From Rhizobium etli CFN 42 (GTDB taxonomy: Bacteria; Pseudomonadota; Alphaproteobacteria; Rhizobiales; Rhizobiaceae): a DNA stretch of 64,000 bases. Location of the stretch: NCBI RefSeq assembly GCF_000092045.1, contig NC_007765.1, forward strand, positions 372,001 to 436,000. Direction: 5' to 3'. Positions 11,908 through 32,287 of the stretch are shown here, piece after piece. A model generated the notes under the pieces. The model was given only the letters and a program-made list of their open reading frames with translations. It was not told where the DNA came from and made no database searches. A program made the position numbers and the translations under genes. Within the stretch, counting starts at the first letter, position 1, and every line of letters starts with the position of its first letter.

Positions 11908-13380
11908 ATGACAGTCATGGAATCCACCAGAACCGAGGCCGATGGCCAAGTTTTCGCCGAGGAAGACCTTGGTTATCACAAGGCGCTGAAGCCGCGGCAG
12001 ATCCAGATGATCGCCATCGGCGGAGCCATCGGCACGGGGCTGTTCCTCGGGGCCGGCGGCCGGCTTGCCGCTGCCGGTCCGGCACTTGTGCTGGTCTATG
12101 CCTTGTGCGGCTTTTTCGCCTTCCTCGTTCTGAGAGCCCTCGGCGAACTGATCGTCCATCGCCCGACCTCGGGCTCGTTCGTATCCTATGCCCGCGAATT
12201 TTACGGCGAAAAGCTCGCCTTCGCAGTCGGCTGGATGTATTGGCTGACCTGGGCGATGACGGCGGTCGCCGACGTCACCGCGGTCGCCCTCTACATGAAT
12301 TTCTTCAAGGCCTATGTCCCGTGGATCGCGATGATCGATCAGTGGGTGTTCGCGTTCGCGGCGTTGGTCCTCGTCCTCTCGATGAACCTTTTGTCGGTGA
12401 AGGTCTTCGGCGAACTGGAATTCTGGTTCAGCCTCGTCAAGGTTCTCGCCCTCCTCATCTTCCTGATCGTCGGCGTCTACTTCGTCGTCACCGGCACGCC
12501 GATCGACGGCCATGTCCCGGGCCTGAACACGATCACCGATTTCGGCGGCATGTTCCCGAACAGCGTCCTGCCGGCGCTGGTGGTGATACAGGGCGTGGTT
12601 TTCGCCTATGCCTCGATCGAGCTGATCGGCACCGCCGCCGGGGAAACCGAAAACGCCCGCAAAGTCATGCCGCGGGCGATCCGCACTGTCGTGCTGCGCC
12701 TGGTCGTCTTCTATGTTGGCTCGGTCCTGCTGCTGTCGCTGCTGCTGCCCTACACCGCCTATAAGGGCGGCGAGAGCCCGTTCGTCACCTTCTTCGGCAA
12801 GATCGGCATCCAGGGCGCCGACGTCGTCATGAACCTCGTCGTGCTGACCGCCGTCCTCTCGTCGCTCAACGCTGGCCTCTATTCGACGGGCCGCATCCTG
12901 CATTCCATGGCCGTTTCCGGCTCGGCGCCGGCGGCGCTGGCGAAGATGAACCGGTCGGGCGTGCCCTATGGCGGGATTGCGGTGACGGCTGTCGTGACCG
13001 CCTTCGGCGTCGTGCTGAACGCCGTCGTTCCGGCGGAAGCCTTCGAGATCGGCCTGAATGTCGCCGCCCTCGGCATCATCGCGGCATGGGGCGTTATCGT
13101 CCTGTGCCAGCTCAAGCTTTGGCAGCTGTCGCGGCAGGGCAAGCTGGCGCGGCCTGAATTCCGGATGTTCGGCGCGCCTTATACCGGGCTGCTGACGTTG
13201 GGCTTCCTTGCCATCGTCGTGATCCTGATGGCCCTCGATTATCCGGTCGGCACCTATACGGTCGCCTCCCTGCTGCTGATCATTCCGGCGCTGGTGGTCG
13301 GCTGGCTACTGATGCGTGAGCGCATCCACATGATAGCCGCCGAACAGGGCGATGAGCGCGGCGGTTTCGATCTGGCCTGA
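11908..13380 (+). CDS. ansP: L-asparagine permease, APC superfamily
   Basis: A 490-aa inner-membrane amino-acid permease with about 12 transmembrane helices. The start region [19 protein letters not shown] is the consensus motif of the APC amino-acid transporter family. The ATG at 11908 is preceded by AGGAG. It resembles AnsP/GABA-permease types; specificity for asparagine is inferred from the genes downstream (asparaginase, aspartase) and from the known R. etli operon. An 11-bp perfect hairpin separates it from ansA. Confidence 0.9.
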
Positions 13381-13402
13381 CACTGCCCGGTAACCCGAGC
13401 TT

Positions 13403-13428
13403 GCTCCGGCGGCTTATGCCGCCGGAGC
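13403..13428 (+). terminator. Strong intercistronic hairpin between ansP and ansA
   Basis: GCTCCGGCGGC (13403-13413) and GCCGCCGGAGC (13418-13428) form a perfect 11-bp GC-rich stem with a 4-nt loop. No T-run follows, so it is not a classic intrinsic terminator. It could reduce read-through or protect the 3' end of ansP mRNA, giving unequal permease and enzyme levels. Confidence 0.6.
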
Positions 13429-13449
13429 GCGGCATGAATGGAGAGAGAA

Positions 13450-14553
13450 ATGACCCCGAGTGAGGATTTCGTCGTCACCGATCGTGGCGGGATCGTCGAG
13501 AACAGCCATCGCGTCCACGCGGCTGTCGTCGATGCGAAGGGCAGGCTGCTCTACGCGCTGGGAAATCCGACGCGTATGACGCTCGCCCGGTCTGCGGCGA
13601 AGCCGGCGCAGGCGCTCGCCATACTGGAGACGGAGGGTGTCGCGGGGTACGGCTTCGATGATGCGGATATTGCACTGATGTGCGCGTCCCACAGCAGCGA
13701 AGATCGGCATATCGCGCGCACGCGCGCCATGCTGTCGAAGATCAAGGCCGAGGAGGCTGATCTTCGCTGCGGCGGTCATCCTTCCCTGTCCGAAATGGTG
13801 AACCGCTCCTGGATCAAGCAGGACTTTATCCCGACGGCGGTTTGCAGCAATTGCTCGGGCAAGCACGTCGGCATGCTTGCCGGCGCCCGTGCGATTGGAG
13901 CCGGCACGGATGGCTACCACCTGCCGGATCATCCGATGCAGGGGAGGGTCAAGCGCACTGTCGCCGAACTCTGCGATCTGGATGCCGGGGACGTCGAATG
14001 GGGAACCGACGGATGCAATCTCCCGACCCCCGCTTTTCCCCTGGATCGTCTGGGGCGCATCTATGCCAAGCTTGCTTCGGCAGCAGATGGGAGCGATGCG
14101 GGTGAGGGGCAGTCAACGCGCTGCGCGGCGCTCGCCCACATCTTCCGGGCAATGGCGCGTCATCCTGAAATGGTCGCGGGCGAGGGACGTTACTGCACGA
14201 TGCTGATGCGCGCATTCGACGGCGCCCTCGTCGGCAAGCTCGGGGCCGATGCCAGCTATGCGATCGGCGTGCGGGCCTCGGACGCAACCAGGCAATTGGG
14301 AACAGACGGTGCGCTCGGCATCTCCGTCAAGATCGAAGACGGCAATCTCGAAATGCTTTACGCCGTCGTAACGGAGCTCCTCGAGCGGCTCGGCATCGGT
14401 TCGCCGGATGTCCGCAGCCAGCTCGCGTCGTTCCATCATCCCCAGCGCGTGAACACGATGGGTGTTACGACAGGCGGGGTGTCTTTTCCGTTCAAGCTGC
14501 GCGGATCGAAGTCGAACGTGGACGATCCTCGCCTTGCCGCCGTTGCCCGATGA
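13450..14553 (+). CDS. ansA: L-asparaginase, class 3 (R. etli ReAV type)
   Basis: Hydrolyses L-asparagine to aspartate and ammonia in the cytoplasm. It belongs to the Asparaginase_II (PF06089) family, unrelated to the E. coli enzymes. Counting from ATG 13450 (367 aa) puts every residue of the solved R. etli ReAV enzyme where published: S48 and K51, S80, and the zinc ligands C135, K138 and C189. This supports ATG 13450 over ATG 13438, and GGAGAG precedes it. Its products feed AnsB, the next gene. The call is very secure. Confidence 0.97.
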   Translation: MTPSEDFVVTDRGGIVENSHRVHAAVVDAKGRLLYALGNPTRMTLARSAAKPAQALAILETEGVAGYGFDDADIALMCASHSSEDRHIARTRAMLSKIKAEEADLRCGGHPSLSEMVNRSWIKQDFIPTAVCSNCSGKHVGMLAGARAIGAGTDGYHLPDHPMQGRVKRTVAELCDLDAGDVEWGTDGCNLPTPAFPLDRLGRIYAKLASAADGSDAGEGQSTRCAALAHIFRAMARHPEMVAGEGRYCTMLMRAFDGALVGKLGADASYAIGVRASDATRQLGTDGALGISVKIEDGNLEMLYAVVTELLERLGIGSPDVRSQLASFHHPQRVNTMGVTTGGVSFPFKLRGSKSNVDDPRLAAVAR

Positions 14554-14645
14554 CGCCTCCGGACGTGAGTCGCGTCTCCAGCCATTCTCTTCTTTAGCCT
14601 GCCGTCGCAATACACCCCACATCGCCCCACTCGAAAGTTACTGCC

Positions 14646-16073
14646 ATGACGACATCCGATATGACCACTATTCGCGTTGAGCACGACCTGATCGGCGACC
14701 GCGACGTGCCGGCCTCGGCCTATTACGGCGTGCATACGGTGCGCGCGGTTGAGAATTTTCCAATTACCGGTCAGACGCTGAAGGAATCGGCGGATCTGAT
14801 CGCCTCCCTGGCGGCGATCAAGCAGGCGGCGGCCGAGGTCAATGTTAGCCTCGGCCTTCTGGATCAGCAGCGGGCCGACGCCATCGTCGCGGCTTGCATC
14901 GAAATCCGCGACGGCGCGCTGCACGACCAGTTCGTCGTCGATCTGATCCAGGGCGGGGCGGGAACCTCGACCAACATGAACGCCAATGAGGTGATCGCGA
15001 ACAGGGCGCTGGAAATACTGGGGCACCGCCGCGGCGAGTACCAGCACCTGCATCCGAACGAGCACGTCAATCTCTCGCAATCCACCAACGACGTCTATCC
15101 GACGGCACTGAAGCTCGCCGCATGGATCGGCGTTCACCGCCTCGTCGACGCCATGGCGATCCTGCGTCGCGCATTCGCGGCCAAGGCGGTCGAGTTTGCC
15201 GACGTGCTGAAGATGGGCCGCACCCAGTTGCAGGATGCCGTGCCGATGACGCTCGGCCAGGAATTCGGAACCTACGCGCTGATGCTGGCGGAGGACGAGG
15301 CGCGCCTCTTGGAAGCGGTCTCCTTGATCCGTGAGATCAATCTCGGCGCGACCGCGATCGGCACCGGCATCACCGCCCATCCTCATTATGCCGCGCTGGT
15401 GCGCGAGCGTCTTTCGGCCATTGTTGGCATCGATCTGGTGACGTCACCTGACCTGGTGGAGGCGACGCAGGATTGCGGCTCCTTCGTGCAGCTTTCGGGG
15501 GTTCTCAAGCGCGTGGCGGTCAAGCTTTCCAAGACCTGCAACGATCTGCGGCTGCTATCCTCCGGCCCGCGCGCCGGCTTGAATGAGATCAATCTGCCGG
15601 CGCGCCAGGCCGGCTCCTCAATCATGCCTGGAAAGGTAAACCCTGTTATCCCCGAGGTCGTCAACCAGGTCGCCTTCGAAGTGATCGGCAATGACGTGAC
15701 GATCACCATGGCCGCCGAGGCAGGCCAACTGCAGCTGAACGCCTTCGAGCCGGTGATCTTCTACAGCCTCTATCGCAGTCTCAGCCACCTGACCAATGCC
15801 TGCCTGACGCTAGAGGCGAATTGCATTCGAGGGATTACCGCCAACCGCGACCGGCTGCGGCAGACGGTCGAGCAATCGATCGGCATCGTAACAGCGCTCA
15901 ACCCCTATATCGGCTACCGCAACGCCACAGAGGTTGCGCTGGAAGCGCATCATTCGGGACGGGGGGTCTATGAAATCCTTCTCGAGCGCGGCCTGATGCA
16001 GAAGGAGCATCTCGATGCGGTGCTGCGCCCGGAAACGCTGACCCGGCCGAGCGAGAAGCTGTCCTTCTCGTAA
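14646..16073 (+). CDS. ansB: Aspartate ammonia-lyase (aspartase)
   Basis: Converts L-aspartate to fumarate and ammonia, completing the route from asparagine into the TCA cycle. It is 475 aa, normal for the fumarase/aspartase superfamily. The signature GSSIMPGKVNPV, holding the catalytic serine loop, lies at about 320-331; TSTNMNANEV and the HPNEHVNLSQSTND block bind the substrate. It follows ansA by about 90 bp on the same strand. This is the last gene of the ans operon; a dioxygenase gene converges from the right. Confidence 0.95.
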   Translation: MTTSDMTTIRVEHDLIGDRDVPASAYYGVHTVRAVENFPITGQTLKESADLIASLAAIKQAAAEVNVSLGLLDQQRADAIVAACIEIRDGALHDQFVVDLIQGGAGTSTNMNANEVIANRALEILGHRRGEYQHLHPNEHVNLSQSTNDVYPTALKLAAWIGVHRLVDAMAILRRAFAAKAVEFADVLKMGRTQLQDAVPMTLGQEFGTYALMLAEDEARLLEAVSLIREINLGATAIGTGITAHPHYAALVRERLSAIVGIDLVTSPDLVEATQDCGSFVQLSGVLKRVAVKLSKTCNDLRLLSSGPRAGLNEINLPARQAGSSIMPGKVNPVIPEVVNQVAFEVIGNDVTITMAAEAGQLQLNAFEPVIFYSLYRSLSHLTNACLTLEANCIRGITANRDRLRQTVEQSIGIVTALNPYIGYRNATEVALEAHHSGRGVYEILLERGLMQKEHLDAVLRPETLTRPSEKLSFS

Positions 16074-17752: not shown

Positions 17753-17863
17753 GAAACGACGCTCGGATCAAGCACATGCAACCAGTCCCGTCCGCAATCT
17801 GCCCGCATCATCAAATGCGGGTGTGTCGCATTCCAACTTTGTTTAGCTTTGCGGCTACCTCTT

Positions 17864-17891
17864 AGAGCGCCTTCAGCATGATGCGATTACT
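17864..17891 (+). repeat. Short intergenic repeat, copy 1
   Basis: The stretch AGAGCGCCTTCAGCATGATG matches a second one at 28091 in 18 of the first 23 positions (core TGATGCGA). Both lie between genes. It looks like a dispersed rhizobial intergenic motif; function unknown. Confidence 0.4.
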
Positions 17892-19548
17892 CCCCGCTGA
17901 AAGCGCTCACATGTGCCTTTGACAGAATAACAAGCTTGTCCGGTTTGACGTTGCGATAGTTGCGTCGCGTGCCGCAGACGGCTCCTCCGTCAGCAAAAAT
18001 CTCTAAAATGCCCTTGTCGTGGATGATTCTCAGATCCGTCGCATCGGCAATCACCGCGGCGTAACGGATGGATCCGTCGTCTTGCGGGAGCTGCACGGAG
18101 ATACTTTGACCTTCCACCACGATGGAAAATGACATTTGTCCAGCTTCGGTCGCGGTGATCCTTGTTCCGTCGAGCATCCCGTTCAGCCGGATATCGATTG
18201 ATGTCTCGTCCAGAACATATCTGCCGGGCTCTGCGGAAGACAGAGGCGCGTGAGTGAGGGCCTCCTCCACTTCGTCAGCGGGTCTCATACATATCCTGTT
18301 GCGCGCATCCAGCGATAGCTGGCGGGGTAAGGACAACTCGCCGGAATACGGCGATCCGGCAGGCTTGCGGAACTCCCAATTGAAGAGCCACGCAAAGGCA
18401 ATCTGCCTGCCACCTGTCGCGAAGCTCTGCATCGCATAAAAGTCGCTGCCGAAATCGAGGAGTTGCAGGGCATCGGAGTCCGGAATGAAGCGGTCATCGA
18501 CGAAATCTCCGACGAGCCCATAGAGCAGGTTGTGTCGCCCGCTGTCAGGGTCACAGTGTCCGACAAGTCCCATGATCAGCACCCATTTGCCGTCGAGGGG
18601 AAAAAAGTCGGGGCATTCAACTGCTCTGGCGCCCTGCTCGCGGAAGAAGGGTGGTGCACGGTACAGCGGTTCCAGGTATTTCCACTCAAGCAGATCCTCC
18701 GAACCGTAAAGCAAGACTGCCGGGTCGCCATGAATAGAAGCGCCGAGCACCATGCGATAAGCGCAGGAGGCTTCATCCCACCACACCTTTGGATCGCGGA
18801 AATCGTGCTCAACGCCTTCGGGGCGCTGCTCGAGCACGGTCGAGATGCTCTCCGCCTTGATCATCCGACGGTCCGGCCGGGCAATCTTCTGTATTTCTCG
18901 GTAGCCTTTGAAAAGGTCATAGGCAGGCAGGCGTTCCGTATAGAAGAACATCAGGCTGCCATCCCTGTCCTGAAATGCATTGCCGGAGAATGCGCCTCCG
19001 GTTGCACCGAGACGCCAGAGGTTCTGCTCCGGATGGAGAAAAACCGGCATGTGTGTCCAGGTGAACAGGTCAGGGCTGGTAGCATGGCCCCAGTGCATTG
19101 GCCCCCAGTCGCCGCCGCATGGATGGAATTGATAAAACAGGTGCCAGCAATCGCCGATCCTGCAGAGACCCACGGGATCGTTCATCCAGTTGCGACAAGG
19201 AGAAAAATGAATTCGAGGCCGCTGAGAATCGCTTCGCAACCATGTGTCAATTTCCTTTCCTGCGCGAATTGGAATTTCATCCGTGCTGAATTCCCATAAC
19301 TTTATGCCGGCCTCCGCAACAGTTGCCGGATCGTAGGAGTAAGCCCAAAGGAATGCTTCCGGGCGATCCCATTCAACGACGACGCTGCCGGCCTCGCGGT
19401 GGTGGTAGGAATAGTATGATGGATGAGCTTCGAAAGCGGGCACATGCCAGAGGGTCTCATCTTGTTGTGAAATGGTGACCGCCCCAGGGCCGACTGCCCA
19501 GAATTCCAAACGCTCGCCCGAAGCAAAAGAGACAGTCGCTTTAGCCAT
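17887..19548 (-). CDS. Glycoside hydrolase family 32, cytoplasmic beta-fructosidase
   Basis: Hydrolyses beta-fructosyl linkages (sucrose, levan/inulin oligomers). From ATG 19548 it is 553 aa. It has the three GH32 motifs: WMNDP with nucleophile D124, FRDPKV (R251-D252) and AVECPDFF with acid/base E311. About 100 extra residues precede the propeller, and a C-terminal beta-sandwich follows. There is no signal peptide, so it acts in the cytoplasm on imported sugar. A TTG at 19593 would add 15 residues; neither start has a clear ribosome site. It is last in a six-gene minus-strand operon and probably splits inulobiose or fructo-oligosaccharides to fructose. Confidence 0.92.
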   Translation of the reverse strand: MAKATVSFASGERLEFWAVGPGAVTISQQDETLWHVPAFEAHPSYYSYHHREAGSVVVEWDRPEAFLWAYSYDPATVAEAGIKLWEFSTDEIPIRAGKEIDTWLRSDSQRPRIHFSPCRNWMNDPVGLCRIGDCWHLFYQFHPCGGDWGPMHWGHATSPDLFTWTHMPVFLHPEQNLWRLGATGGAFSGNAFQDRDGSLMFFYTERLPAYDLFKGYREIQKIARPDRRMIKAESISTVLEQRPEGVEHDFRDPKVWWDEASCAYRMVLGASIHGDPAVLLYGSEDLLEWKYLEPLYRAPPFFREQGARAVECPDFFPLDGKWVLIMGLVGHCDPDSGRHNLLYGLVGDFVDDRFIPDSDALQLLDFGSDFYAMQSFATGGRQIAFAWLFNWEFRKPAGSPYSGELSLPRQLSLDARNRICMRPADEVEEALTHAPLSSAEPGRYVLDETSIDIRLNGMLDGTRITATEAGQMSFSIVVEGQSISVQLPQDDGSIRYAAVIADATDLRIIHDKGILEIFADGGAVCGTRRNYRNVKPDKLVILSKAHVSAFSGE

Positions 19549-19656
19549 TTGGAGACGCAATCTGTGAAACGGCCGGTCCGAAGACTGGCCCAAGTTATTC
19601 TCGGGAAGAGGACCTGTGGTCCCACACCGGCGGGAGAGGCCTGGCGGCTGCGGGTT

Positions 19657-21018
19657 CTATTGCCCAAGAACCGGAGTGCCCCTGAATGCATTTACCGTTC
19701 TGTTCATCACAACTTGTTCGTCATTTCCGGAGTCCAGGACTGTATTCCGTACGGATTCCTTCTGCACCAGCACAGTTGTTACGTCTAGTAATGTCGAATT
19801 CCCGGTCGAAAGCAACGCGCTCACCTGTGTTGAAAAGCAGGCGCTGTTTGGCGCATCGCTCTTGTCCTTTTGAGATATTTCGGTTGCAGCCACAATGTGG
19901 TTGCTGGCTATGTAGTTGCCACTACCGGAAACTACATTGATTATGACAGGCTTTGCTGCGGGAGGCCGAATATATCGAGCATCTATTATTTCCGATATAT
20001 GGTTCGCGATCAGCGAATTGTTGCTTCCGTCAATCTGCAAAAGTCCGAACAGATCATCCAGGCCATTGTCGTACTTCTGCATCGGCGTCCATGGCTCGCG
20101 ATCTCGCAGAAAGTGATTTGAGGAGACCAGATTCTCGCAGCAGTTGGCAGCAAAAACCAACATCCCTGGATAAAAGGAATGGAACCTGTTTCCTGTCACC
20201 GAGGAACGCACCACGCCGGAGAAATGGATACTGCTCGCTCCTCGAGGAAATACGTTGTTTGAGGATACAAGAATGCCCGCGTAATTCTCAGCGTAGATAG
20301 AGTACCCTCTATATCCGGCGCCGACAAAATTATTTGCTATTCTTGAGGCCTGCCCCATACCTTTCAGTTCGATACAGTTGCCGCACTCTGCGATGAAATT
20401 GTTATCTATCGCGAGCGCGTCTCCATCATGAACGATAACTCCGTGCTCCAGGTAGACAAGACCCATCCCCGTTATTCGGAAGGAGTCATTGGCGCTGCCC
20501 ACGTAAATTCCCGTTTTGCCGTTCCTGTATGTATTTTCTGCGTCGTTTTGCCCCGAACCATCGTCGGTGAAATGCAAGCCATCGATGCAAAAGTCAGCAA
20601 ATTCCACAGAGCTTATACGAGGATTTCCGCTGCGCTTGACATAAAACGCGGCACCAGCAGCCTCACCGTCCGCAGCCTCTGGAGACGTGTCCACAAGTAT
20701 ACGACTTCCACCCGGCCACACTTCGTGCCAGTGGGCCAACTCGCTTGCGGGTGTGTTGAAGCGGATGCTTGACGACGTAAAACCATGCCCAGAGCCAACG
20801 ATTTTCAGATAGCTCACGTCTATAACGACTTGAGTGAAAAGACGATAATCGCCTGGCGGTATATAGATAACCGATCCAGGTTTGCCGCCGTCATTTGCAT
20901 CGGCAACGGCTTGCCTGTTTTTAATATCCGCAATGATGTCATTGATGACCGCGCCAATATCCTCGCCAGGATTTCCTGCTGCATATTTCGTGACGTCGTA
21001 ATAATTTTCGCTAACCAT
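19657..21018 (-). CDS. GH91 family protein (inulin fructotransferase / DFA-hydrolase-like)
   Basis: A 453-aa right-handed beta-helix protein. The stretches DIGAVINDIIADIKNRQ (about 20-36), VIYIPPGDYRL and NGKTGIYVGSANDSF...MGLVYLEH are typical of GH91 enzymes. These turn inulin into difructose anhydrides (DFA) or, in the DFA-IIIase subgroup, hydrolyse DFA III to inulobiose. The predicted active-site stretch holds D205, E211 and E217 (DNNFIAECGNCIEL). Secreted transferases have signal peptides; this protein starts MVSENYYDV and has none. With a sugar importer and GH32 in the operon, intracellular DFA hydrolysis is the better guess. AGGAG precedes the ATG. Confidence 0.85.
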   Translation of the reverse strand: MVSENYYDVTKYAAGNPGEDIGAVINDIIADIKNRQAVADANDGGKPGSVIYIPPGDYRLFTQVVIDVSYLKIVGSGHGFTSSSIRFNTPASELAHWHEVWPGGSRILVDTSPEAADGEAAGAAFYVKRSGNPRISSVEFADFCIDGLHFTDDGSGQNDAENTYRNGKTGIYVGSANDSFRITGMGLVYLEHGVIVHDGDALAIDNNFIAECGNCIELKGMGQASRIANNFVGAGYRGYSIYAENYAGILVSSNNVFPRGASSIHFSGVVRSSVTGNRFHSFYPGMLVFAANCCENLVSSNHFLRDREPWTPMQKYDNGLDDLFGLLQIDGSNNSLIANHISEIIDARYIRPPAAKPVIINVVSGSGNYIASNHIVAATEISQKDKSDAPNSACFSTQVSALLSTGNSTLLDVTTVLVQKESVRNTVLDSGNDEQVVMNRTVNAFRGTPVLGQ

Positions 21019-21072
21019 TTGTAATGTCTCCTCGGGCAGCGAAGTTAATCTTGTTTTCTTTTGGCTATGCCA

Positions 21073-22215
21073 TCACCAGATGCTGGTGCGGGTGTCCGGA
21101 TCAAAGAAGTGAAGTTCTTCGGCATCCACAGCAATGCGCGCGATGTCACCTGCTCGCACTGGGCTCTTTGGGGAAAAACGGGCTACAGCAGCTTTTTCGT
21201 CGCCGATGTCGGCGATGGCGTCCGGGTCGCCGGCATCCACCCAAGGTGCATCGATATTCAGATGCACCATGGATTCAGAACCTAGCGCCTCAACAAGAGT
21301 GACCCGGGCCGAGATCTCGGCCGAAGAAGGCCGGATTGCAGCGTCGTTCATGTACTCCGGCCGGATACCGAGGAGGATTTGACGGTTAGACGCACCATTG
21401 AGCGAGGGACGGCATTCGAAAACCCGGTCAGGAATTTCGAAACTGTTGCTGCCCAGGGTCACAGTCCTTCCATTCAAAACGGCCTCGTACAAGTTCATCG
21501 AGGGCGATCCGATAAAGGCCGCAACAAAGACGTTATCAGGGCGACTGTACAGATTTTGCGGTGTGTCGACTTGCTGCAGCACACCGCCTTTCATGACAGC
21601 GACACGGTCACCCATCGTCATTGCCTCGACCTGATCGTGAGTGACGTAGATCGTGGTGACGTTGAGTTTTCTCTGGAGCCTGGCAATCTCGGCGCGCATC
21701 TGCACACGCAGTTTTGCATCGAGATTGGACAGCGGTTCATCCATCAGGAAGGCGGACGGCTGGCGGACGATCGCCCGACCCATGGCGACGCGCTGCCGCT
21801 GGCCACCCGAGAGCAGCGCCGGCTTGCGGTCGAGCAGAGCCGTCAGTTCGAGGACGCGCGCGGCCTCGTCCACGCGTCTGGCAATGTCGGATTTTGGCAA
21901 CCCTGCCATTAGCAGTGGAAAGGCGATGTTTTCGCGCACGGTCTTGTGCGAGTAAAGCGCGTAAGACTGAAAGACCATGGCGATGTCGCGATCCTTGGGA
22001 TCGACATCGTTGACGACCCTGTCCCCAATCCTGAGTTCGCCGCTCGAAATGCTCTCAAGGCCGGCGATCATCCGAAGCGCCGTCGATTTCCCACATCCCG
22101 AGGGACCGACAAACACCATAAACTCACCATCCCTGATGTTGAAATTCAGGTCGTGCAGCGCATGAAAGCTGTTGCCGTAAATCTTGTTGACGTTGCGTAA
22201 TTCTATACCGGCCAT
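21073..22215 (-). CDS. CUT1 sugar ABC transporter ATPase (UgpC/MsmK type)
   Basis: A 380-aa ATPase energising the two permeases upstream. It has Walker [10 protein letters not shown] (about 38-46), Q-loop, signature LSGGQRQR, Walker [13 protein letters not shown], switch His in [11 protein letters not shown], and a C-terminal regulatory OB-fold (TOBE) domain that includes ILLGIRPEYM. It starts 13 bp after the second permease and ends 54 bp before the GH91 gene. Proteins of this class can serve more than one importer. Confidence 0.94.
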   Translation of the reverse strand: MAGIELRNVNKIYGNSFHALHDLNFNIRDGEFMVFVGPSGCGKSTALRMIAGLESISSGELRIGDRVVNDVDPKDRDIAMVFQSYALYSHKTVRENIAFPLLMAGLPKSDIARRVDEAARVLELTALLDRKPALLSGGQRQRVAMGRAIVRQPSAFLMDEPLSNLDAKLRVQMRAEIARLQRKLNVTTIYVTHDQVEAMTMGDRVAVMKGGVLQQVDTPQNLYSRPDNVFVAAFIGSPSMNLYEAVLNGRTVTLGSNSFEIPDRVFECRPSLNGASNRQILLGIRPEYMNDAAIRPSSAEISARVTLVEALGSESMVHLNIDAPWVDAGDPDAIADIGDEKAAVARFSPKSPVRAGDIARIAVDAEELHFFDPDTRTSIW

Positions 22216-22228
22216 ATCTCCGCCTCCC

Positions 22229-23065
22229 TCATCCTTTTACAGCGCCGAAAGTCAGGCCGCCGACGATCTGCTTTTGAAGTGCGAGTGTTACGATGATGAC
22301 GGGCAGTGAATAGAGCACGGCCGCCGCCGTCATCGCTCCCCAGGCCAGGCCATAGACTGAGTTGTATTCAGCAATGACGATCGGTGCCGTTTTGGTCGCC
22401 TCCGACGTCAGCAGTAGTGCGTAGAGGAACTCGTTCCAGCTCGTGATGAAGGTAAAGAGCGCGGTGACCGCGATTCCGCCCGTCATGATCGGAAGAATGA
22501 CTTTCAGAAAGGCCTGGAAACGGGTGCAGCCGTCCATGCGCGCCGCCTCTTCGAGATCCTTCGGAACGCCTTCGAAGAAGGCTGCCATAAGTAGAATCGC
22601 AAGGGGTACCGCGGCTGATGTATGGGCGAGCACCAGACCGGGAACGGTATCCAGCAGACCGAGCGACTTCAGAAGCTGGAACAATGGCACGCCGAGCGAC
22701 ACCGAGGGCACCATGCGCGTGACCAGCGCGAACAGCAGGAACAGGGTAGTGATCCGGCGCCGGTAGTGGGTCGCGACATAAGCGGCGGGAACCGCCACAG
22801 CGAGGGAAAGGATGGTTGTCAGCACCGCCACCGTCAGCGAGCTTGCGAAGGCCCGCGGCAGGGTCGATGATTGCAGGACATCGCGAAAATTCTCGAAAGA
22901 GATGACGACGGGAAAGAAGCGCGGCGGAATCTGCTGGACATCCGCTGCCGGCTTGATCGACGTCATGAGCAGATAGACGTAAGGCAGCGCATAGGACAGG
23001 ACGAGGACGAGGGCGGCGGCATTGATCACGATGCCGTTGAGATGGAGGCGGCGGGCACTAAGCAT
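22229..23065 (-). CDS. Sugar ABC transporter permease, MalG type
   Basis: 278 aa, six transmembrane helices, with the EAA loop DLEEAARMDGCTRFQAFLKVILPIM near residues 170-194 and the C-terminal QKQIVGGLTFGAVKG typical of MalG-like permeases. The first 8 bases overlap the end of the MalF-type permease gene, indicating coupled translation. Confidence 0.93.
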   Translation of the reverse strand: MLSARRLHLNGIVINAAALVLVLSYALPYVYLLMTSIKPAADVQQIPPRFFPVVISFENFRDVLQSSTLPRAFASSLTVAVLTTILSLAVAVPAAYVATHYRRRITTLFLLFALVTRMVPSVSLGVPLFQLLKSLGLLDTVPGLVLAHTSAAVPLAILLMAAFFEGVPKDLEEAARMDGCTRFQAFLKVILPIMTGGIAVTALFTFITSWNEFLYALLLTSEATKTAPIVIAEYNSVYGLAWGAMTAAAVLYSLPVIIVTLALQKQIVGGLTFGAVKG

Positions 23066-23939
23066 GGACCGGCCTCCATATCTTCCAATAGGCAGCGGCG
23101 GCCAGAAGCATCATGACGATCAGAAACAGCGTGCCGGAGGCCGAGGCCTCGCCGAGATCGCCGAAGCGCACCATGCGCTGATAGATGTTCATCGAAAACA
23201 CTTCAGAAGCGTGGTTGGGGCCACCTTGGGTCTGGATCCAGATGAGGTCGAAGGTCTTGGCCGCATCCACCCCACGCACGATGACGACAACGGCGATCAC
23301 CGGGCGCATCAGCGGCAGCGTGACATGCCAGAAGCGCTTGAACGCATTCGCGCCGTCGATTCGCGCCGCCTCCAGCAGGTCTTTGGGAATGTTTGTCAAT
23401 CCGGCATAGGAGACGAGGGCGACAAAGGATGTCGTCAGCCAGATATCGGCAAAAGAGACGGAATAGATGACGATATCTTCGTCGGACAACCAGGCAATCG
23501 CATCGGGATCGCCGATGACGCCCAATTGGACGAGCCCATAATTCAAGATGCCGATGTTCCCGACCAAGAGAAAGCGCCACAAGAGGCCGGCGACAATGGG
23601 CGGCACCATCAATGGCAGCGTAAAGATCGTGCGGTGCCAGCGCGACTGACCGGCGAGCGCCGTGAACAGCAGAGCGGCGCAGAAGCCGAAGGTAAATTCG
23701 AAGAACAGCGCAAAGATCGAGTACTGGATTGTTCTGAATGCGCTTTCCGCGACGCGCTTCGAGGTTAGCGCGTCGATATAGTTCTTGAGCCCGACCCACT
23801 CTCGTATGTGGGGAGTAATGGTGTCGACCTTAAAAAGAGAATCGAACACCAGAAGCCCTACCGGGTATGCGACCAGCAAGCCAAGGATGGCGAGGGCTGG
23901 CGCAAGCATGCACAGCACAAATCGGTCTTCACCCGACAT
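23058..23939 (-). CDS. Sugar ABC transporter permease, MalF type
   Basis: 293 aa with an N-terminal helix followed by the membrane core. The EAA loop is LLEAARIDGANAFKRFWHVTLPLM (about 205-228), and TQGGPNHASE near the C-terminus is a CUT1 hallmark. About 60 bp separate it from the binding-protein gene. With the MalG-type permease it should form the channel of the fructan-locus importer. Confidence 0.93.
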   Translation of the reverse strand: MSGEDRFVLCMLAPALAILGLLVAYPVGLLVFDSLFKVDTITPHIREWVGLKNYIDALTSKRVAESAFRTIQYSIFALFFEFTFGFCAALLFTALAGQSRWHRTIFTLPLMVPPIVAGLLWRFLLVGNIGILNYGLVQLGVIGDPDAIAWLSDEDIVIYSVSFADIWLTTSFVALVSYAGLTNIPKDLLEAARIDGANAFKRFWHVTLPLMRPVIAVVVIVRGVDAAKTFDLIWIQTQGGPNHASEVFSMNIYQRMVRFGDLGEASASGTLFLIVMMLLAAAAYWKIWRPVHA

Positions 23940-23999
23940 GGCGCTCTCCGAAAGCTGATGATGCGAGAAGGACCACCCGTCCTCCTCGCCGCCGAGGGA

Positions 24000-25259
24000 C
24001 TAGTCGAGAATGTCTTCGATCGTTTCCTTGGCGTCCGTCAGGACCTCGCCGACATCCGCTTTGCACGTCAGGGCCTGCTGCACGGCGGGAAGAACCGCTT
24101 CGTCGACAATTTCCTGATATTTTTCGTTCATCGGACGGCCCTGCGTCGCAGGAGCACTCAACGTCTCAAGCAGCGGCGTGAAATGCTCATAACCGGGCTT
24201 GCCGGCATAGCTGTTATAGGCAGACTTCGTCGCAGCCAATCCAAGCGGCGCTTCGATACCCAGGGCATTGTTGGCGATTGCGAAAGCGATGAACTTCTTG
24301 GCCGCGTCCTTATGCTGAGAGGTCGACGGAACGACATTGTACCAAGGACCCGGAATTGCCGCGATCCCTGCATCGCCGGCCAGCATTGGAACGACGCCGA
24401 CCTTTCCGCTGACCTTGGAATCGGCGGGCGTCATCTTGTAGGCGTGCGCCCAGAATTTCATCATCGCTGTCTTGCCTTGATAGAACAGGTTCTGAGCCTC
24501 GCCCCAGCCGATCTCGTTCACGTTTTCGGGCACGGAATGATCGATGCAGTGCGGCGCGATGTAGAATTCGAGCGCCTTCCTATGCGCTTCGTTGTCGATG
24601 ATCACCTTCCCATCCTTGTCGAGGATCACACCTGGGGAGCCCGCCTGAAGCACATGCGCCATCCATTCTTCGGAGAAGCTGCCGATGGTGTCGGTGCCCC
24701 AAAAGTCGGCCTTGCCGTCACCATCTGTATCTCGGGTGAAGAATGTTGCGATGTCGCGCCATTGCTGCCAAGTCTTCGGCGGGGCGAGGGGATAGCCATA
24801 TTTTGCCTGGAACGCTTTCTGTTCCTCTGGTTTGTCGAAGAGGTCCTTGCGATAAAAAACAATTTCGGCATTGGCCCACGCAGGCATGCCGATCAGTTTG
24901 TCACCGATCTTCGCGTCGGCAAGCAAGGCAGGCGGCAGGTCCTCGCGAACTGCTTCGGTGAAAAGCGGCGCGAGGTCTTCGACATGGCTTGCGAATTTCG
25001 CGTTCCACACGACGTCGATCGTTACTACATCGAACGCCGATGAACCGGAGGCGATTTCGGCGGAAAACTTGTCGAAGACGCCCTGATAGGGAACGACGGT
25101 GAAGTTCACCTTGATGCCGGTCTCGGCGGTGAACTTCTCTGCGGCGGCCTTCTGCAGCATTTCGCCGCCGCCTTCCACGAGGATATTGATGGTTTCGGCC
25201 TTGGCGGAGGCCGCAATGCAAACGAGCGCGAGCGCGCTGGCGCCAAGCAGTTTCTTCAT
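24000..25259 (-). CDS. Sugar ABC transporter substrate-binding protein (fructan locus)
   Basis: A periplasmic CUT1 binding protein, 419 aa. ATG 25259 has GGGAGGG just upstream and begins a textbook signal peptide (MKKLLGASALALVCIAASAKA). An in-frame ATG at 25319 would place 20 residues before it and is rejected. Mature motifs include VEGGGEMLQKAAAEKFTAETG and, near the C-terminus, GRPMNEKYQEIVDEA. It is the first gene of the operon ending in GH91 and GH32, so a fructose-containing oligosaccharide or anhydride is the likely ligand (inference). Its promoter overlaps LacI-type operators. Confidence 0.9.
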   Translation of the reverse strand: MKKLLGASALALVCIAASAKAETINILVEGGGEMLQKAAAEKFTAETGIKVNFTVVPYQGVFDKFSAEIASGSSAFDVVTIDVVWNAKFASHVEDLAPLFTEAVREDLPPALLADAKIGDKLIGMPAWANAEIVFYRKDLFDKPEEQKAFQAKYGYPLAPPKTWQQWRDIATFFTRDTDGDGKADFWGTDTIGSFSEEWMAHVLQAGSPGVILDKDGKVIIDNEAHRKALEFYIAPHCIDHSVPENVNEIGWGEAQNLFYQGKTAMMKFWAHAYKMTPADSKVSGKVGVVPMLAGDAGIAAIPGPWYNVVPSTSQHKDAAKKFIAFAIANNALGIEAPLGLAATKSAYNSYAGKPGYEHFTPLLETLSAPATQGRPMNEKYQEIVDEAVLPAVQQALTCKADVGEVLTDAKETIEDILD

Positions 25260-25314
25260 GAATCCCTCCCTTGTTCCGCCGGAGGCGCTTGCCTCAGGCT
25301 GTTCCAGTGTGGGG

Positions 25315-25387
25315 ACCATAGGCGCGCTATGACGACGTTGTCAATTACGATTGTCGACGTTGTCAGAAAAATATGTCGACGTTGTCA
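25315..25387. promoter_or_regulatory. Divergent control region with three LacI-type operators
   Basis: Three near-identical 14-mers centred on ACGT lie at 25330-25343 (TGACGACGTTGTCA), 25352-25365 and 25374-25387 (both TGTCGACGTTGTCA), exactly 22 bp apart. The first is palindromic at 12 of 14 positions. On the minus strand TTGACA (25344-25339) and TATGGT (25320-25315), 18 bp apart, form a likely promoter of the importer operon, and its -35 overlaps the first site. The LacI gene diverges from the same region, so repression of both sides is expected. Confidence 0.75.
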
Positions 25388-25431
25388 TGGGTGTGGTTTA
25401 CAACGGACCCGCATCAGGAGAATTGGCGGAC

Positions 25432-26457
25432 ATGGTGAGCATCGTCAGCGTCGCAAAAGCGGCCGGGGTTTCGAATAAAACAGTCTCTCGGGTCATCAAT
25501 GGCGAGCCCTACGTGACTGAGGAAACCCGGGAGAGGGTGGAAAAGGCCATTCGGGATCTCGGCTATATCCCAAATATGGCGGCGCGCCTCATACGATCCA
25601 GCCGTTCCAACACCTTTGGGATTATCACCGATTATGTTTCCACGACGCCTTATTCGGTCGATATTGTCCGCGGAATTCAGGACTGGGCCAATGCGAATGG
25701 GAAAACCATCCTGATAGCCAACACCGGTGGTTCTTCCGAGCGAGAAGTGGAAATCTGGAAAATGTTCCAGTCCCATCGCATTGATGGAGTCTTATATGTA
25801 ACCATGTACCGCCGCATTGTGGATCCGGAGTCCGGCGATGTCAGCATTCCGACAGTGATGATAAATTGTCGGCCGCAAACAAGGGAGCTCCTGCCGTCTA
25901 TCGAGCCCGATGATTATCAGGGGGCGCGAGATCTCACCCGTTACCTGCTTGAACGGGGTCATCGCAGAATCGGTTACATCCGGCTCAATCCGATCCTATT
26001 GGGAGCCGAACTGCGCCTGGATGCGTTTCGTCGAACGACAAGCGAATTCGGTCTCACAGAGAACGACCTCTCTATCAGCCTTGGGATGGATGGGCCTGTG
26101 GGGGCAGAGAACAACTACGTCTTCGCGGCAGCGACCGAAATGCTCAAACAAGACGACCGTCCGACCGCGATCATGAGCGGCAACGACGAAATGGCAATTC
26201 AAATCTACATTGCCGCCATGGCACTGGGATTGCGGATTCCACAAGACGTCAGCATCGTCGGCTTTGACGATTTTCGAACAGTCACCATGGCGCTGAAGCC
26301 GGAGCTAACCACAGCGGCGTTACCATATTACGATCTCGGCCGAGAGGGTGCGAAGTGGCTGAACGATTTGATAGCGGGCGAGAAGATTTATCCGGGCAGT
26401 CGGGTTGTCTCTTGCAAGCTGGTTGAACGTAGCTCTGCCGCCTTTGGCCCTCATTAG
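25432..26457 (+). CDS. LacI-family transcriptional regulator of the fructan locus
   Basis: A 341-aa regulator. It has an N-terminal LacI helix-turn-helix and hinge (SVAKAAGVSNKTVSRVINGE, about 4-23) and a periplasmic-binding-like effector domain ending VSIVGFDDFR...LTTAALPYYDLGREG. ATG 25432 with AGGAG upstream is preferred over a TTG at 25351, which would sit inside the operators. It is divergent from the importer operon. The three 22-bp-spaced palindromes are probably its sites, and the inducer is likely the imported sugar or fructose (inference). Confidence 0.92.
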   Translation: MVSIVSVAKAAGVSNKTVSRVINGEPYVTEETRERVEKAIRDLGYIPNMAARLIRSSRSNTFGIITDYVSTTPYSVDIVRGIQDWANANGKTILIANTGGSSEREVEIWKMFQSHRIDGVLYVTMYRRIVDPESGDVSIPTVMINCRPQTRELLPSIEPDDYQGARDLTRYLLERGHRRIGYIRLNPILLGAELRLDAFRRTTSEFGLTENDLSISLGMDGPVGAENNYVFAAATEMLKQDDRPTAIMSGNDEMAIQIYIAAMALGLRIPQDVSIVGFDDFRTVTMALKPELTTAALPYYDLGREGAKWLNDLIAGEKIYPGSRVVSCKLVERSSAAFGPH

Positions 26458-26510
26458 GCGTCGAGAATCTACTGCCTGCCTCGCATGATCACGTCTGGTT
26501 TGAGCGCTGC

Positions 26511-26600
26511 CTTCGACAAAACCTCGATCCGCTGCAGATCGCGCTCGCTCATCGCAATCACAATCCCATCTGCAATCTCCGCCGTCAAAGACGGGGAGAG
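26511..26600 (-). mobile_element. Remnant of an ISNCY-type transposase N-terminus
   Basis: On the minus strand this stretch reads ...IVIAMSERDLQRIEVLSK, which resembles the start of ISNCY-family transposases (MSERELQRIEVLSK). The similarity then stops and the frame ends 18 codons further on at about 26457-26475. No transposase body or terminal repeats remain. It fills the roughly 300-bp gap between the convergent LacI and AraC genes. The call rests on a short remembered motif. Confidence 0.42.
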
Positions 26601-26759
26601 AGTGACATTCTTACTTTGCAGAAACAGGACACTTCAACTTTGCGGCAGGCGAATCTGGCGTAATCTGTCTTATGGAACTTGAAAGCGCAAGGCAAACGCT
26701 GCTGCCTAATCGCTTTGAAAATACGCAGCAATATCAATTGCTTTCGGCGCGTTCCCAAA

Positions 26760-29078: not shown

Positions 29079-30311
29079 ATGCTCTGGAACCATCGCATCA
29101 CGCGCATCGTTGTCGGCCTGCTGCTGCTGACACTCGTCGCAGTCGTCTCATTGCCGACGATTACCGGCTTTACGAGCCTTGATGGCACGGTCAATGCACG
29201 GTTTGCCGTCGTTAATGCCCCGATCGACGGCATGATCGCGGAAGAACCGCTCAAGGCCGGCAGCCCGGTCAAAGCGGGACAAGCCCTCGCAGAAATCAGA
29301 AATACGCGTGTCAATCGCGCAATCCTCGCTTCGCTCGAGGCAGATCGCAACACGGCGCTTGACCGCGTCGCCGCCCTCAAAAAGGAACGAGAGGAACTCT
29401 CCGCCCTGCGAGAGGAATTGTCTGCCAGATTGGAAGTCTACAAGCAGACCACCATTGCCAATCTCGAACGCGAAGTTGAAATCCTCAGGAAAAAAGTCGA
29501 AGTGTCGCAAGCTCAGGATCTGGTCGCGCAAGTCGACCTGAGCAGGCGGGTGCAGCTCGAGTCTAAAGGCATTCTGACGCAGAAGCTGGTCGAGGCCGCG
29601 CGTGCCGCCGGAGCTGCGACTGGCGGCGAGGTCGAAATCAGCAACCTGACTGTCGATCAATTGGAGCAGAGGCTCAATGCGGTCCGCCAAGGTATCTTTG
29701 TTTTCGGCGACGGACAGAATGACGTGCCCTATTCGCGGCAGCGCGAGGACGAGGTCGTCGTTCGCATCAACGACTTGAACTCGCGCATAGCGGAAAATGA
29801 GACACGCGCGACCGAAGTTCAAAAGCAGCTGGTCAAGGAGGCCGAGCGCGTCAGCAGCCTTGAATCCGCAACCGCATTAGCTCCGTTCGACGGCGTTGTC
29901 TGGACCAGGAGTATCGTCAGCGGTTCGAATGTCGTGCTGAACGACGAGCTGATGCGCCTCCTCGACTGTCGAGAGCTGTTCGTGGATATCCTCGTTCCCG
30001 AGGTCAATTACGACGAGATCTACCCGGGACTTGTTGCGCAGGTGCGGCTGTTCGGCCGCAGCGATGTCTTCAAAGGCACGGTCATTTCCGTCAGGGGCAA
30101 TTCGGCTTCGGTCGAGACCGATTCCTTTGCCGCCAGCTTGCCGCCGTCGACGCAACGCAATGCCCGCATTCGGGTTCGCCTCGATCCATCCTTCATGAAT
30201 AACGACTTTGCGAACTCCTGCCAGGTGGGACGCACAGTGCAGGTCCGGTTTTCCAAACACGGCATCAACCTATCCAACTGGGTCAAAAGCCTGTGGTTCA
30301 GTATCTTGTAG
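29079..30311 (+). CDS. bgsB: HlyD-type membrane-fusion protein, probable BgsB
   Basis: A 410-aa protein with one N-terminal transmembrane helix (IVVGLLLLTLVAVVSL), a lipoyl-like split domain (APIDGMIAEEPLKAGSPVKAG and ATALAPFDGVVWTRSIVSGS), and two coiled-coil arms between them (about 85-150 and 230-275). This is the periplasmic adaptor layout. It precedes a cellulose-synthase-like glycosyltransferase and overlaps it by 19 bp. The same gene order and types form bgsBA of Sinorhizobium meliloti, which makes a c-di-GMP-activated mixed-linkage beta-glucan. BgsB is needed for export or assembly of the polymer there. Confidence 0.82.
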   Translation: MLWNHRITRIVVGLLLLTLVAVVSLPTITGFTSLDGTVNARFAVVNAPIDGMIAEEPLKAGSPVKAGQALAEIRNTRVNRAILASLEADRNTALDRVAALKKEREELSALREELSARLEVYKQTTIANLEREVEILRKKVEVSQAQDLVAQVDLSRRVQLESKGILTQKLVEAARAAGAATGGEVEISNLTVDQLEQRLNAVRQGIFVFGDGQNDVPYSRQREDEVVVRINDLNSRIAENETRATEVQKQLVKEAERVSSLESATALAPFDGVVWTRSIVSGSNVVLNDELMRLLDCRELFVDILVPEVNYDEIYPGLVAQVRLFGRSDVFKGTVISVRGNSASVETDSFAASLPPSTQRNARIRVRLDPSFMNNDFANSCQVGRTVQVRFSKHGINLSNWVKSLWFSIL

Positions 30312-32287
30312 CGCTGGTTCCGACCCTAGTCGTTTTGGCTTTCTTTTTCCTGGGGCCGTTCAATTGGTCGCGCCATCACAGCTGGACACGGGCGGTGACC
30401 TGCGCCTTCGTCGCAGCACTCGCACTGCGCTACATGTTCTGGCGCTTGACGGAGACAGTGCTCCCCTATCCCAGCGACGGTCCGAGTTTCTACTGGGTCT
30501 GGATCCTCTTTGCCGTCGAAGTTTTGGCCTGCTTCGAAGTCATCCTTTTTCTGATATTGATGAGCCGGTATGTCGACCGGAGCGCAGAGGCGGACAGGCT
30601 CGGTCGGGTTTTCTTCGCGCGCGACAAGCGTGAACTGCCGACCGTCGATGTTTTCATTCCCACCTATAACGAGCCGCTCGACGTGCTCGAGCGAACCATC
30701 ATCGGCGCCCGTTCGCTGGATTATCCTGCCGACAAATTGAAGGTGTATGTGCTTGACGATCAACGCCGCGACTGGCTGAGGGCCTATTGCGAAGAAAAGA
30801 ACGTCATCCACGTCACGCGCGGCGACAACAGCCATGCCAAAGCGGGCAATATGAACAATGGGCTGAAGGTCAGCTCGGGCGATTTTATTGCAATCTTCGA
30901 CGCCGATTTTGTTCCTTATCGGCATTTTCTTCGCCGGACGCTGCCCTTCTTTTCCGATGACAGCATCGGCATCGTCCAGACGCCTCAACATTTCTTCAAT
31001 GTCGATCCGGTGCAATCGAACCTCGGCCTGGAGAATATCTGGCCCGACGAGCAGCGCCTGTTCTTCGACGAGATCGCGCCCAGCCGCGACGCCTGGGACG
31101 TCAGTTTCTGCTGCGGCTCATGCTCGATCGCCCGACGCAAGGCCGTCGACGCAATCGGCGGGTTTCCGACGGAGTCGATCACGGAGGACCTGCTGACCAC
31201 TCTGTCGATGCTCAACAAAGGCTACAAGACGCGCTACCTGAACGAGCGGCTGTCGATGGGACTGGCCGCCGAAAACCTGACCGGTTATTTTGTGCAGCGC
31301 GAGCGATGGTGCCAGGGCGGTATTCAAACCCTCTACCTGTATAATGGCCCGCTGCGCGGCCCCGGCTTGACGCTCTTCCAGCGGATCATGTTCCTGCCGG
31401 CATCATGGCTGGTGCAGTATCTGGTCCGCTTCATGATCTTGCTCGTCCCGATCGTCTATCTCTGGTTCGGCCTGCTCCCGCTCTATTTCACCGACATAGC
31501 CGATTATGTCTCGCATCAGGTGCCGCTGCTGGCGGCGTATTTCCTGCTTATGCTGTGGATCACGCCGACGCGTTATCTGCCTGTTGTTTCCAGCGCCGTC
31601 GGAACCTTTGCGACATTCCGCATGCTGCCGACAGTGGTCTCCAGCCTGGTGAGACCGTTTGGCAAGCCGTTCAGGGTGACGCCCAAGGGCAGTGGCAACG
31701 AGGCGAACCAGTTCGACCGCTACAGCTTCGCCTGGATCGCAGGCATGATCACGATCACCGTCTTCGGTCTGCTGGTCAACGTCGTGCCGGAAACGTCGCA
31801 TGTGCAAGGCCAGTTTTCGCCGGTCGCGGCCTGGTGGTCAGGCATCAATATCGTCGTCCTGCTCATCGCTTCGCTCATCTGCTTCGAGAAACCCCGGCGC
31901 CTGTTTCATGCGTTCAAGCTCGATGAGCCCGCTGTCGTCGACGATGTCCCCGGCCAGATCGTCAGCCTGGCATTGGACAAGGCGGTCGTGGCCGTCCACA
32001 ACATGGCCAGATTTCAATCCAAATCGGTGATGCTGAAAATCGCCGGCTTCGACCCGATCAAAGCGGAGCTCGGACAGGTCACCCAACGACGAAGCAGCAT
32101 CAGTCGCGGCGGCGACAGGCAGGCCTATTACCTGCACCTTTATTTCGAGCTCAGCGGCGCTGCTCGCGACAGCATGATTGTCAAACTCTACACCGGCCAA
32201 TATTCGCGGGACATTCGCGACATCGACAAGGTTGCCGTCTCTCTCAATCTGTTGCTGCGGTCCTTCGGGCGAACGCGCACGTTGTAG
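30293..32287 (+). CDS. bgsA: Cellulose-synthase-like GT2, probable mixed-linkage beta-glucan synthase BgsA
   Basis: A 664-aa inner-membrane processive glycosyltransferase starting at GTG inside the bgsB end. Catalytic motifs are complete: VLDD (155-156), DAD (203-205), TED (D299) and QRERW (335-339). Transmembrane helices lie at the N-terminus and after 380. The cytoplasmic C-terminus (about 560-664) is not a PilZ domain, as in S. meliloti BgsA, whose C-terminal part binds c-di-GMP. The likely product is a linear (1-3)(1-4)-beta-D-glucan. Plain cellulose synthesis is less likely because no bcsB/C/Z genes are adjacent. Confidence 0.84.
   Translation: MVQYLVALVPTLVVLAFFFLGPFNWSRHHSWTRAVTCAFVAALALRYMFWRLTETVLPYPSDGPSFYWVWILFAVEVLACFEVILFLILMSRYVDRSAEADRLGRVFFARDKRELPTVDVFIPTYNEPLDVLERTIIGARSLDYPADKLKVYVLDDQRRDWLRAYCEEKNVIHVTRGDNSHAKAGNMNNGLKVSSGDFIAIFDADFVPYRHFLRRTLPFFSDDSIGIVQTPQHFFNVDPVQSNLGLENIWPDEQRLFFDEIAPSRDAWDVSFCCGSCSIARRKAVDAIGGFPTESITEDLLTTLSMLNKGYKTRYLNERLSMGLAAENLTGYFVQRERWCQGGIQTLYLYNGPLRGPGLTLFQRIMFLPASWLVQYLVRFMILLVPIVYLWFGLLPLYFTDIADYVSHQVPLLAAYFLLMLWITPTRYLPVVSSAVGTFATFRMLPTVVSSLVRPFGKPFRVTPKGSGNEANQFDRYSFAWIAGMITITVFGLLVNVVPETSHVQGQFSPVAAWWSGINIVVLLIASLICFEKPRRLFHAFKLDEPAVVDDVPGQIVSLALDKAVVAVHNMARFQSKSVMLKIAGFDPIKAELGQVTQRRSSISRGGDRQAYYLHLYFELSGAARDSMIVKLYTGQYSRDIRDIDKVAVSLNLLLRSFGRTRTL

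Follow-up and report, generated by a model that had tools for sequence, protein, structure and literature searches.

The window analysed here is a 64,000-nucleotide stretch of DNA from Rhizobium etli CFN 42, a bean-nodulating soil bacterium, and it holds a gene of glycoside hydrolase family GH91 in the midst of genes for sugar uptake. The features of this locus, from left to right, are as follows.

17762..26758, no strand: cassette of about 9 kb, approximate extent, from comparison with R. etli CIAT 652 plasmid pA
17887..19548, minus strand: GH32 beta-fructofuranosidase without a signal peptide, motifs WMNDPVG, FRDPK and VECPD; start as in R. etli Mim1
19657..21018, minus strand: predicted GH91 DFA-III hydrolase (DFA-IIIase, EC 4.2.1.178), 453 amino acids, cytoplasmic; catalytic pair D200 and E211, H280, lid at about residues 377-411 with C394
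21073..22215, minus strand: MalK/UgpC-like importer ATPase
22229..23065, minus strand: MalG-like permease
23058..23939, minus strand: MalF/UgpA-like permease
24000..25259, minus strand: periplasmic sugar-binding protein, signal peptide by reading, first gene of the operon; start as in R. etli Mim1
25330..25343, no strand: operator-like palindrome 1, TGACGACGTTGTCA, overlapping a TTGACA-like -35 element on the minus strand
25352..25365, no strand: operator-like palindrome 2, 22 bp beyond palindrome 1
25374..25387, no strand: operator-like palindrome 3, 22 bp beyond palindrome 2
25432..26457, plus strand: LacI-family regulator, divergent; start as in R. etli Mim1

Gene starts were taken from the near-identical R. 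etli Mim1 record, which is 99.3% identical here. From the binding-protein gene through the permeases, the ATPase and GH91 to GH32, the spacers measure 60, -8, 13, 54 and 108 bp, a layout which suggests that the six genes are co-transcribed. The sugar importer and cytoplasmic GH32 that an earlier note on this DNA had named as neighbours of GH91 are thus in place, on the same strand and with gaps of no more than 108 bp. Across the WMNDP, RDP and EC motifs, the GH32 protein can be aligned with solved beta-fructofuranosidases (3pig, 179 bits), and it is expected to split inulobiose. Its first motif reads WMNDPVG and not WMNDPNG, which counts against the route for difructose dianhydride III (DFA III) proposed below. 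Elsewhere in the window, amino acid permease, asparaginase and aspartase genes at 11908-16073 resemble ansAB in kind and order, and genes for a HlyD-like protein and a glycosyltransferase at 29079-32287 likewise resemble bgsBA. The ansAB asparagine operon has been reported on R. etli CFN42 plasmid p42e (PMC8602277), as have the mixed-linkage beta-glucan genes bgsBA, RHE_PE00362/363 (PMC9495663).

The GH91 reading frame starts with ATG and covers 453 codons, exactly from 21018 to 19657 on the minus strand, so the coordinates given earlier stand. Its product matched six distinct solved GH91 chains over the full length (E 6e-79 to 6e-188). The top match was the DFA-IIIase 5zks (628 bits, residues 1-452 against 1-444, 64.4% identity), which we take to be AcDFA-IIIase of Arthrobacter chlorophenolicus A6. 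This is the strain named for AcDFA-IIIase in PMC11538131. Scores against fructotransferases were 361 (9j4i), 357 (2inu) and 269 bits (8hsn), and identity to three fructotransferases (two of them solved, the third predicted) was 50-52%. Of the assayed enzymes compared, the closest is probably a protein of Blautia parvula NBRC 113351 (locus L088; 68.4% identity), which we equate with the published BpDFA-IIIase because the strain name agrees and it is the sole GH91 match of that genome. That the assayed enzymes compared are only 64-68% identical to the GH91 protein counts against the DFA III route proposed below.

PDB 2inu was taken, from the fit of its residue numbering, as BsIFTase of Bacillus sp. 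snu-7, the catalytic residues of which are D233 and E244. Together with the eleven non-catalytic site residues listed in PMC4640833, 13 of 13 residue names fit the 2inu letters at an offset of 40, which confirms the numbering. In an alignment that held 103 distinct sequences, 11 of the 13 site residues were the same in the GH91 protein as in BsIFTase (S84, I85, R134, Y164, D200, E211, Q223, F257, P258, R259 and F282). The catalytic Asp/Glu pair, which the earlier note had wanted checked, is therefore present as D200 and E211. The two differences are H280 for Gln313 and M313 for Phe346. BsIFTase belongs to the same family but is lidless, 51% identical, and makes DFA III from inulin. According to PMC4640833, the catalytic residues of AaDFA-IIIase are D207/E218, with mutant data, and the site residues of the Arthrobacter DFA-IIIase all equal those of BsIFTase except H287, which by that protein's offset would map to the position of H280.

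Sorted by overall identity, the alignment comprised 98 DFA-IIIase-like rows, the window protein and 5zks among them, and 5 others. The histidine equivalent to H280 is present in all 98, as is a lid insert of about 30 residues that is found in 0 of the 5 others; the lid cysteine (C394) is kept in 96 of 98 and replaced by Ala in L053 and L098. At the Gln313 position, the five lidless rows have Gln (two solved and one predicted fructotransferase) or Ala (two second enzymes of Rhizobiales, described below). The lid bears on function, as its removal makes AcDFA-IIIase a fructotransferase (PMC11538131, citing Yu et al. 2018). AcDFA-IIIase resembles the R. etli protein in its full-length match, 64% identity, catalytic pair, histidine and cysteine-bearing lid, but comes from an actinobacterial host and has Phe at the M313 site. 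This Phe, also found in BsIFTase, makes M313 a point against the DFA-IIIase reading, although Met occupies the site in 63 other rows, including that of B. parvula NBRC 113351. The gene has a dN/dS of 0.08-0.12 against five relatives, indicating purifying selection, and a broken GH91 gene was rejected on these values.

A tree was built from 56 rows, chosen by hand among 153 that had been gathered with a DFA-IIIase query; its lidless side consisted of three fructotransferases, of which two are solved and one is predicted, and of two lidless rows from rhizobia, and DFA-I-forming enzymes and 8hsn, the sixth solved GH91 sequence, were left out. When all columns from the lid onwards were cut away, 51 lidded rows still separated from 5 lidless rows (support 100/98), and the same split was recovered with all columns (SH-aLRT 98). 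The GH91 protein branches with those of R. esperanzae and R. aethiopicum, inside an alphaproteobacterial group of 22 rows (100/99). The phylogeny that had been proposed as a check thus groups the protein with DFA-IIIases apart from fructotransferases, with the comparison to the DFA-I-forming type falling outside this tree. Taken together, the match score, the place in the tree, H280, the lid with C394 and the genes of the operon support the call of a difructose-anhydride hydrolase over that of a fructotransferase.

The protein had also been described as having no signal peptide, and this holds. Upstream of its start, only 18 residues are open in frame, with no leader by a simple hydropathy test. 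In a crude hydrophobicity scan, a helix near the start of the mature chain brings the first 45 residues to 1.62, close to the value of the leader control (1.63); up to residue 25, the informative stretch, the value is 0.29. In Arthrobacter nitrophenolicus, the frame of a fructotransferase predicted to be secreted stays open for 96 residues upstream, and these include an apparent Tat-like leader.

The company of the gene was examined in relatives at 80 loci, the best 80 of 132 confirmed stretches, where a neighbour was a tblastn match to a window protein of 60 bits on the same strand within 10 kb; three of these loci (L026-L028) are one genome. The importer (binding protein and both permeases) is present at 67, GH32 at 65 and both at 59 of the 80, as raw counts. 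These 59 span three phyla, being distributed as 22/24 in Alphaproteobacteria, 18/29 in Bacilli, 18/20 in Clostridia, 1/2 in Actinomycetes and 0/5 in Gammaproteobacteria. Among the 62 loci with full flanks, 53 have the importer, 53 GH32, 48 both and 4 neither. Two observations count against the DFA III route: this importer type was found at 0 of the 5 gammaproteobacterial loci, and identity between the importer genes and their counterparts in other phyla is mostly 34-50%, ABC sugar importers being common. Within the rhizobia, GH32 identity is 95% in R. esperanzae and 48-49% in Sinorhizobium terangae and R. hidalgonense (L024, L026, L030), and the importer genes of the latter two clusters are 89-95% identical. 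GH32 is hence diverging faster than the rest, which suggests exchange of the GH32 gene. In S. terangae USDA4894 the cluster lies on three contigs (L026, L027, L028) with the same match figures, these contigs being repeats or assembly copies.

That GH91 DFA-IIIases can be intracellular was known before: in Blautia they lie next to ABC importers and GH32, and in Arthrobacter they accompany GH32 (PMC11538131). The B. parvula NBRC 113351 cluster (PMC11538131; L088) likewise combines an ABC importer, GH91 and GH32, and its GH91 protein has 68% identity and Met at the M313 site; it differs in gene order, and its GH32 and importer are 30% and 36-39% identical. BpDFA-IIIase interconverts DFA III and inulobiose, with an equilibrium of 59.3:40.7, and together with GH32 takes DFA III through to fructose (PMC11538131). 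For Arthrobacter, three stages have been suggested, with synthesis outside the cell, then uptake, then breakdown within (PMC8605356).

On these grounds, we consider it very probable that the R. etli operon is a route for the uptake and breakdown of DFA III, with GH91 as a cytoplasmic DFA-IIIase. The route we infer, in its enzymatic activity, importer substrate, repression, inducer and outside source of DFA III alike, would run as follows. DFA III would be made extracellularly from plant inulin by other soil microbes, captured in the periplasm by the binding protein and taken in by the MalFG/MalK-type ABC importer. In the cytoplasm GH91, probably a homotrimer like its relatives, would use E211/D200 under the closed lid to add water to the DFA III ring, reversibly giving inulobiose, which GH32 would cleave to two fructoses and so pull the GH91 reaction forward. 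LacI would repress the operon from three operators and be released when DFA III or inulobiose is present. The genome has a single GH91 match and no second GH91 gene, so that only the stages of uptake and inside breakdown would be represented, which leads to a reading of R. etli as a scavenger. In A. nitrophenolicus, unlike R. etli, a fructotransferase predicted to be secreted is encoded about 8 kb away from the DFA-IIIase.

The natural substrate could instead be imported oligosaccharides, because characterised DFA-IIIases act on nystose, GF4 and inulin. The operon would then mainly import inulin-type fructo-oligosaccharides (nystose, GF4), on which GH91 would act in the cytoplasm with GH32 doing most of the work. 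Such a role agrees with the pairing of GH32 and a MalFGK-type importer and with the hydrolysis of GF3, GF4 and inulin by BpDFA-IIIase (PMC11538131). However, GH32 alone would suffice for these sugars, the lid and H280, which mark DFA hydrolysis, occur in every one of the 98 DFA-IIIase-like rows, and the dN/dS of the GH91 gene is low; we regard this reading as unlikely. Release of DFA III from inulin and nystose is a further property of characterised DFA-IIIases (PMC11538131), and for this reason activity on inulin with release of DFA, which the earlier note, if joined with none on DFA, would have accepted as a refutation, is too weak to serve as one.

We give very little credence to the idea that GH91 hydrolyses some other dianhydride in the cytoplasm, for example DFA I, on a conserved DFA-IIIase scaffold. 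The 32-36% divergence from the assayed enzymes leaves room for a change of substrate, but the protein shares its lid, H280 and the Met at the Phe346 site with the B. parvula enzyme, which is inactive on DFA I (PMC11538131, data not shown there). Opening of a difructose dianhydride is also known from the GH172 DFA-I synthase/hydrolase of Bifidobacterium dentium, which belongs to another glycoside hydrolase family (DUF2961, PF11175) and keeps the anomer (PMC8605356); a PF11175 search found no match in the R. etli genome, nor in any of 14 control genomes. Inulin fructotransferases (EC 4.2.2.17/18) are secreted, lidless and have Gln at 313, features which the GH91 protein lacks. A secreted fructotransferase was rejected, and a DFA III-forming one exported by an unrecognised route is scarcely credible: family and catalytic pair are shared, and DFA-IIIases do have some DFA-forming activity (PMC11538131), but there is no room for a signal peptide, the lid is present, H280 replaces Gln, and scores reach at most 361 against 628 bits.

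The three palindromic sites between the binding-protein and LacI genes follow the pattern TG(A/T)CGACGTTGTCA, and the three exact matches to it in the 6,530,228-base genome all lie in this intergenic region. With one mismatch allowed, the genome holds 12 matches in all, against 3 for a reversed control pattern; the looser form TGACNACGTNGTCA with one mismatch has 4 matches in the window (the three sites and one at 49599) against 0.07 expected. A site within one mismatch of the looser form occurs at 23 of 23 loci with LacI near the binding protein (150 bits, within 1.5 kb; all alphaproteobacterial, three from one genome), and Agrobacterium Ach5 likewise has three operator-like sites. A LacI match of 150 bits was found at 0 of 20 Clostridia loci. 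A promoter scan did no better than chance (6 sites against 4.6 +/- 2.3 expected). The operator-like sites fit a LacI regulator with a single target.

The GH91 gene has a G+C content of 49.9%, compared with 54-60% in LacI and the other operon genes and 61-63% in the flanks. In R. etli CIAT 652, plasmid pA has about 0.8 kb (L161 3272-4067) in place of window positions 17762-26758; the right edge is uncertain by about 100 bp, with a 27-bp match at 26656-26682. Both flanks without the operon were found on this plasmid, which was examined, and in fifteen R. phaseoli records among the matches listed. In Rhizobium sp. Kim5, one plasmid has this site without the operon and a different plasmid carries the cluster, and the same seems to hold for R. 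sophoriradicis and R. phaseoli, judging by species names and adjacent accession numbers. The module thus behaves as a cassette moving between replicons.

Counting the R. etli genome itself, the DFA-IIIase gene occurs in 29 of 148 genomes of the genus and in 9 of 394 of the family sample. It is carried by 83 of 72,556 plasmid records, 69 of which are named Rhizobium. A DFA-IIIase homologue, 61% identical, also lies on the Latilactobacillus sakei kimchi plasmid NZ_CP099486.1 (3582-4916). Twenty of the plasmid records, taken at even steps, label the gene 'NosD domain-containing protein' (15; for example, NC_021908.1 398160-399521), 'right-handed parallel beta-helix' (2) or not at all (3), and one record bears the label 'fructotransferase'. 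The NosD label probably stems from the Pfam NosD match, which is understandable at E 3e-8 and 33.7 bits against a cut-off of 23.6 bits. The Pfam Beta_helix and NosD matches agree with a right-handed beta-helix fold; a true NosD was rejected, as the NCBIfam NosD model, with a cut-off of 300 bits, scores 16.9 and the protein matches GH91 much better.

Some relatives carry a second GH91 protein of about 400 amino acids, with no leader and no lid, which has Ala at the Gln313/His280 position and forms its own branch in the tree. Its carriers are Rhizobium mongolense subsp. loessense, R. multihospitium, Pleomorphomonas koreensis and six Agrobacterium plasmid records, including Ach5 pAt. In the three clusters inspected, it lies inside or beside the import operon.

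L021:5731-6951, plus strand: second GH91 of R. mongolense subsp. loessense, beyond LacI and beside a PfkB kinase gene
L044:5862-7064, plus strand: second GH91 of Pleomorphomonas koreensis, between MalK and GH32
L160:9010-10215, plus strand: second GH91 of Agrobacterium Ach5 pAt, between the DFA-IIIase and GH32

Identity is 83-87% among the three compared and 45-48% to DFA-IIIases. The gene is rare, in 2 of 148 genus genomes, 1 of 397 in the order sample (at the Pleomorphomonas coordinates) and 0 of 385 in the class sample; among 43 carrier genomes, those of 43 of the best 80 loci, 4 have a close second GH91 and 1 a distant one. The second GH91 of Arthrobacter has a leader, unlike that of Rhizobiales. 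Achillea ptarmica and yarrow, plants that store fructans, are each the source of one of the six Agrobacterium records, too few to mean much. We suggest tentatively, with some doubt, that the DFA-III module of Rhizobiales gained a second, lidless cytoplasmic GH91, perhaps of undescribed activity; in the cytoplasm it might hydrolyse another dianhydride (DFA I) or act as a fructotransferase on imported oligosaccharides.

The view that a rhizobium of this kind would be new stands within the limits of the search. No DFA-IIIase of rhizobia or Agrobacterium was described in the literature searched, which covered Agrobacterium by title and start of abstract and Sinorhizobium among the matches listed, with subscription journals mostly outside it. 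The three main GH91 papers make no mention of rhizobia, and inulin and fructotransferase are absent from the main text of an R. etli CFN42 proteome paper (PMC9611204). Intracellular DFA-IIIases next to importers and GH32, on the other hand, were known. What is already known is therefore the kind of enzyme and the type of operon, and what is added is the rhizobial host, the regulator with its operators, the cassette of about 9 kb and the second, lidless GH91.

In the literature we met, DFA III is treated mainly as a food ingredient and gut prebiotic. With the operon described here, alphaproteobacteria, and root-nodule bacteria especially, join the organisms that are likely to live on DFA III. 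The finding corrects a wrong name, 'NosD domain-containing protein', on DFA-IIIase genes, and a genome with hydrolase and importer but no second GH91 for making DFA III is one in which scavenging could be put to the test. For sensing DFA III or inulobiose, LacI with its operators would be a candidate. A new activity in the second, lidless enzyme would add another kind of intracellular chemistry to GH91, and if the module did gain it, rhizobia and agrobacteria would share a mobile, swappable kit for cyclic fructans.
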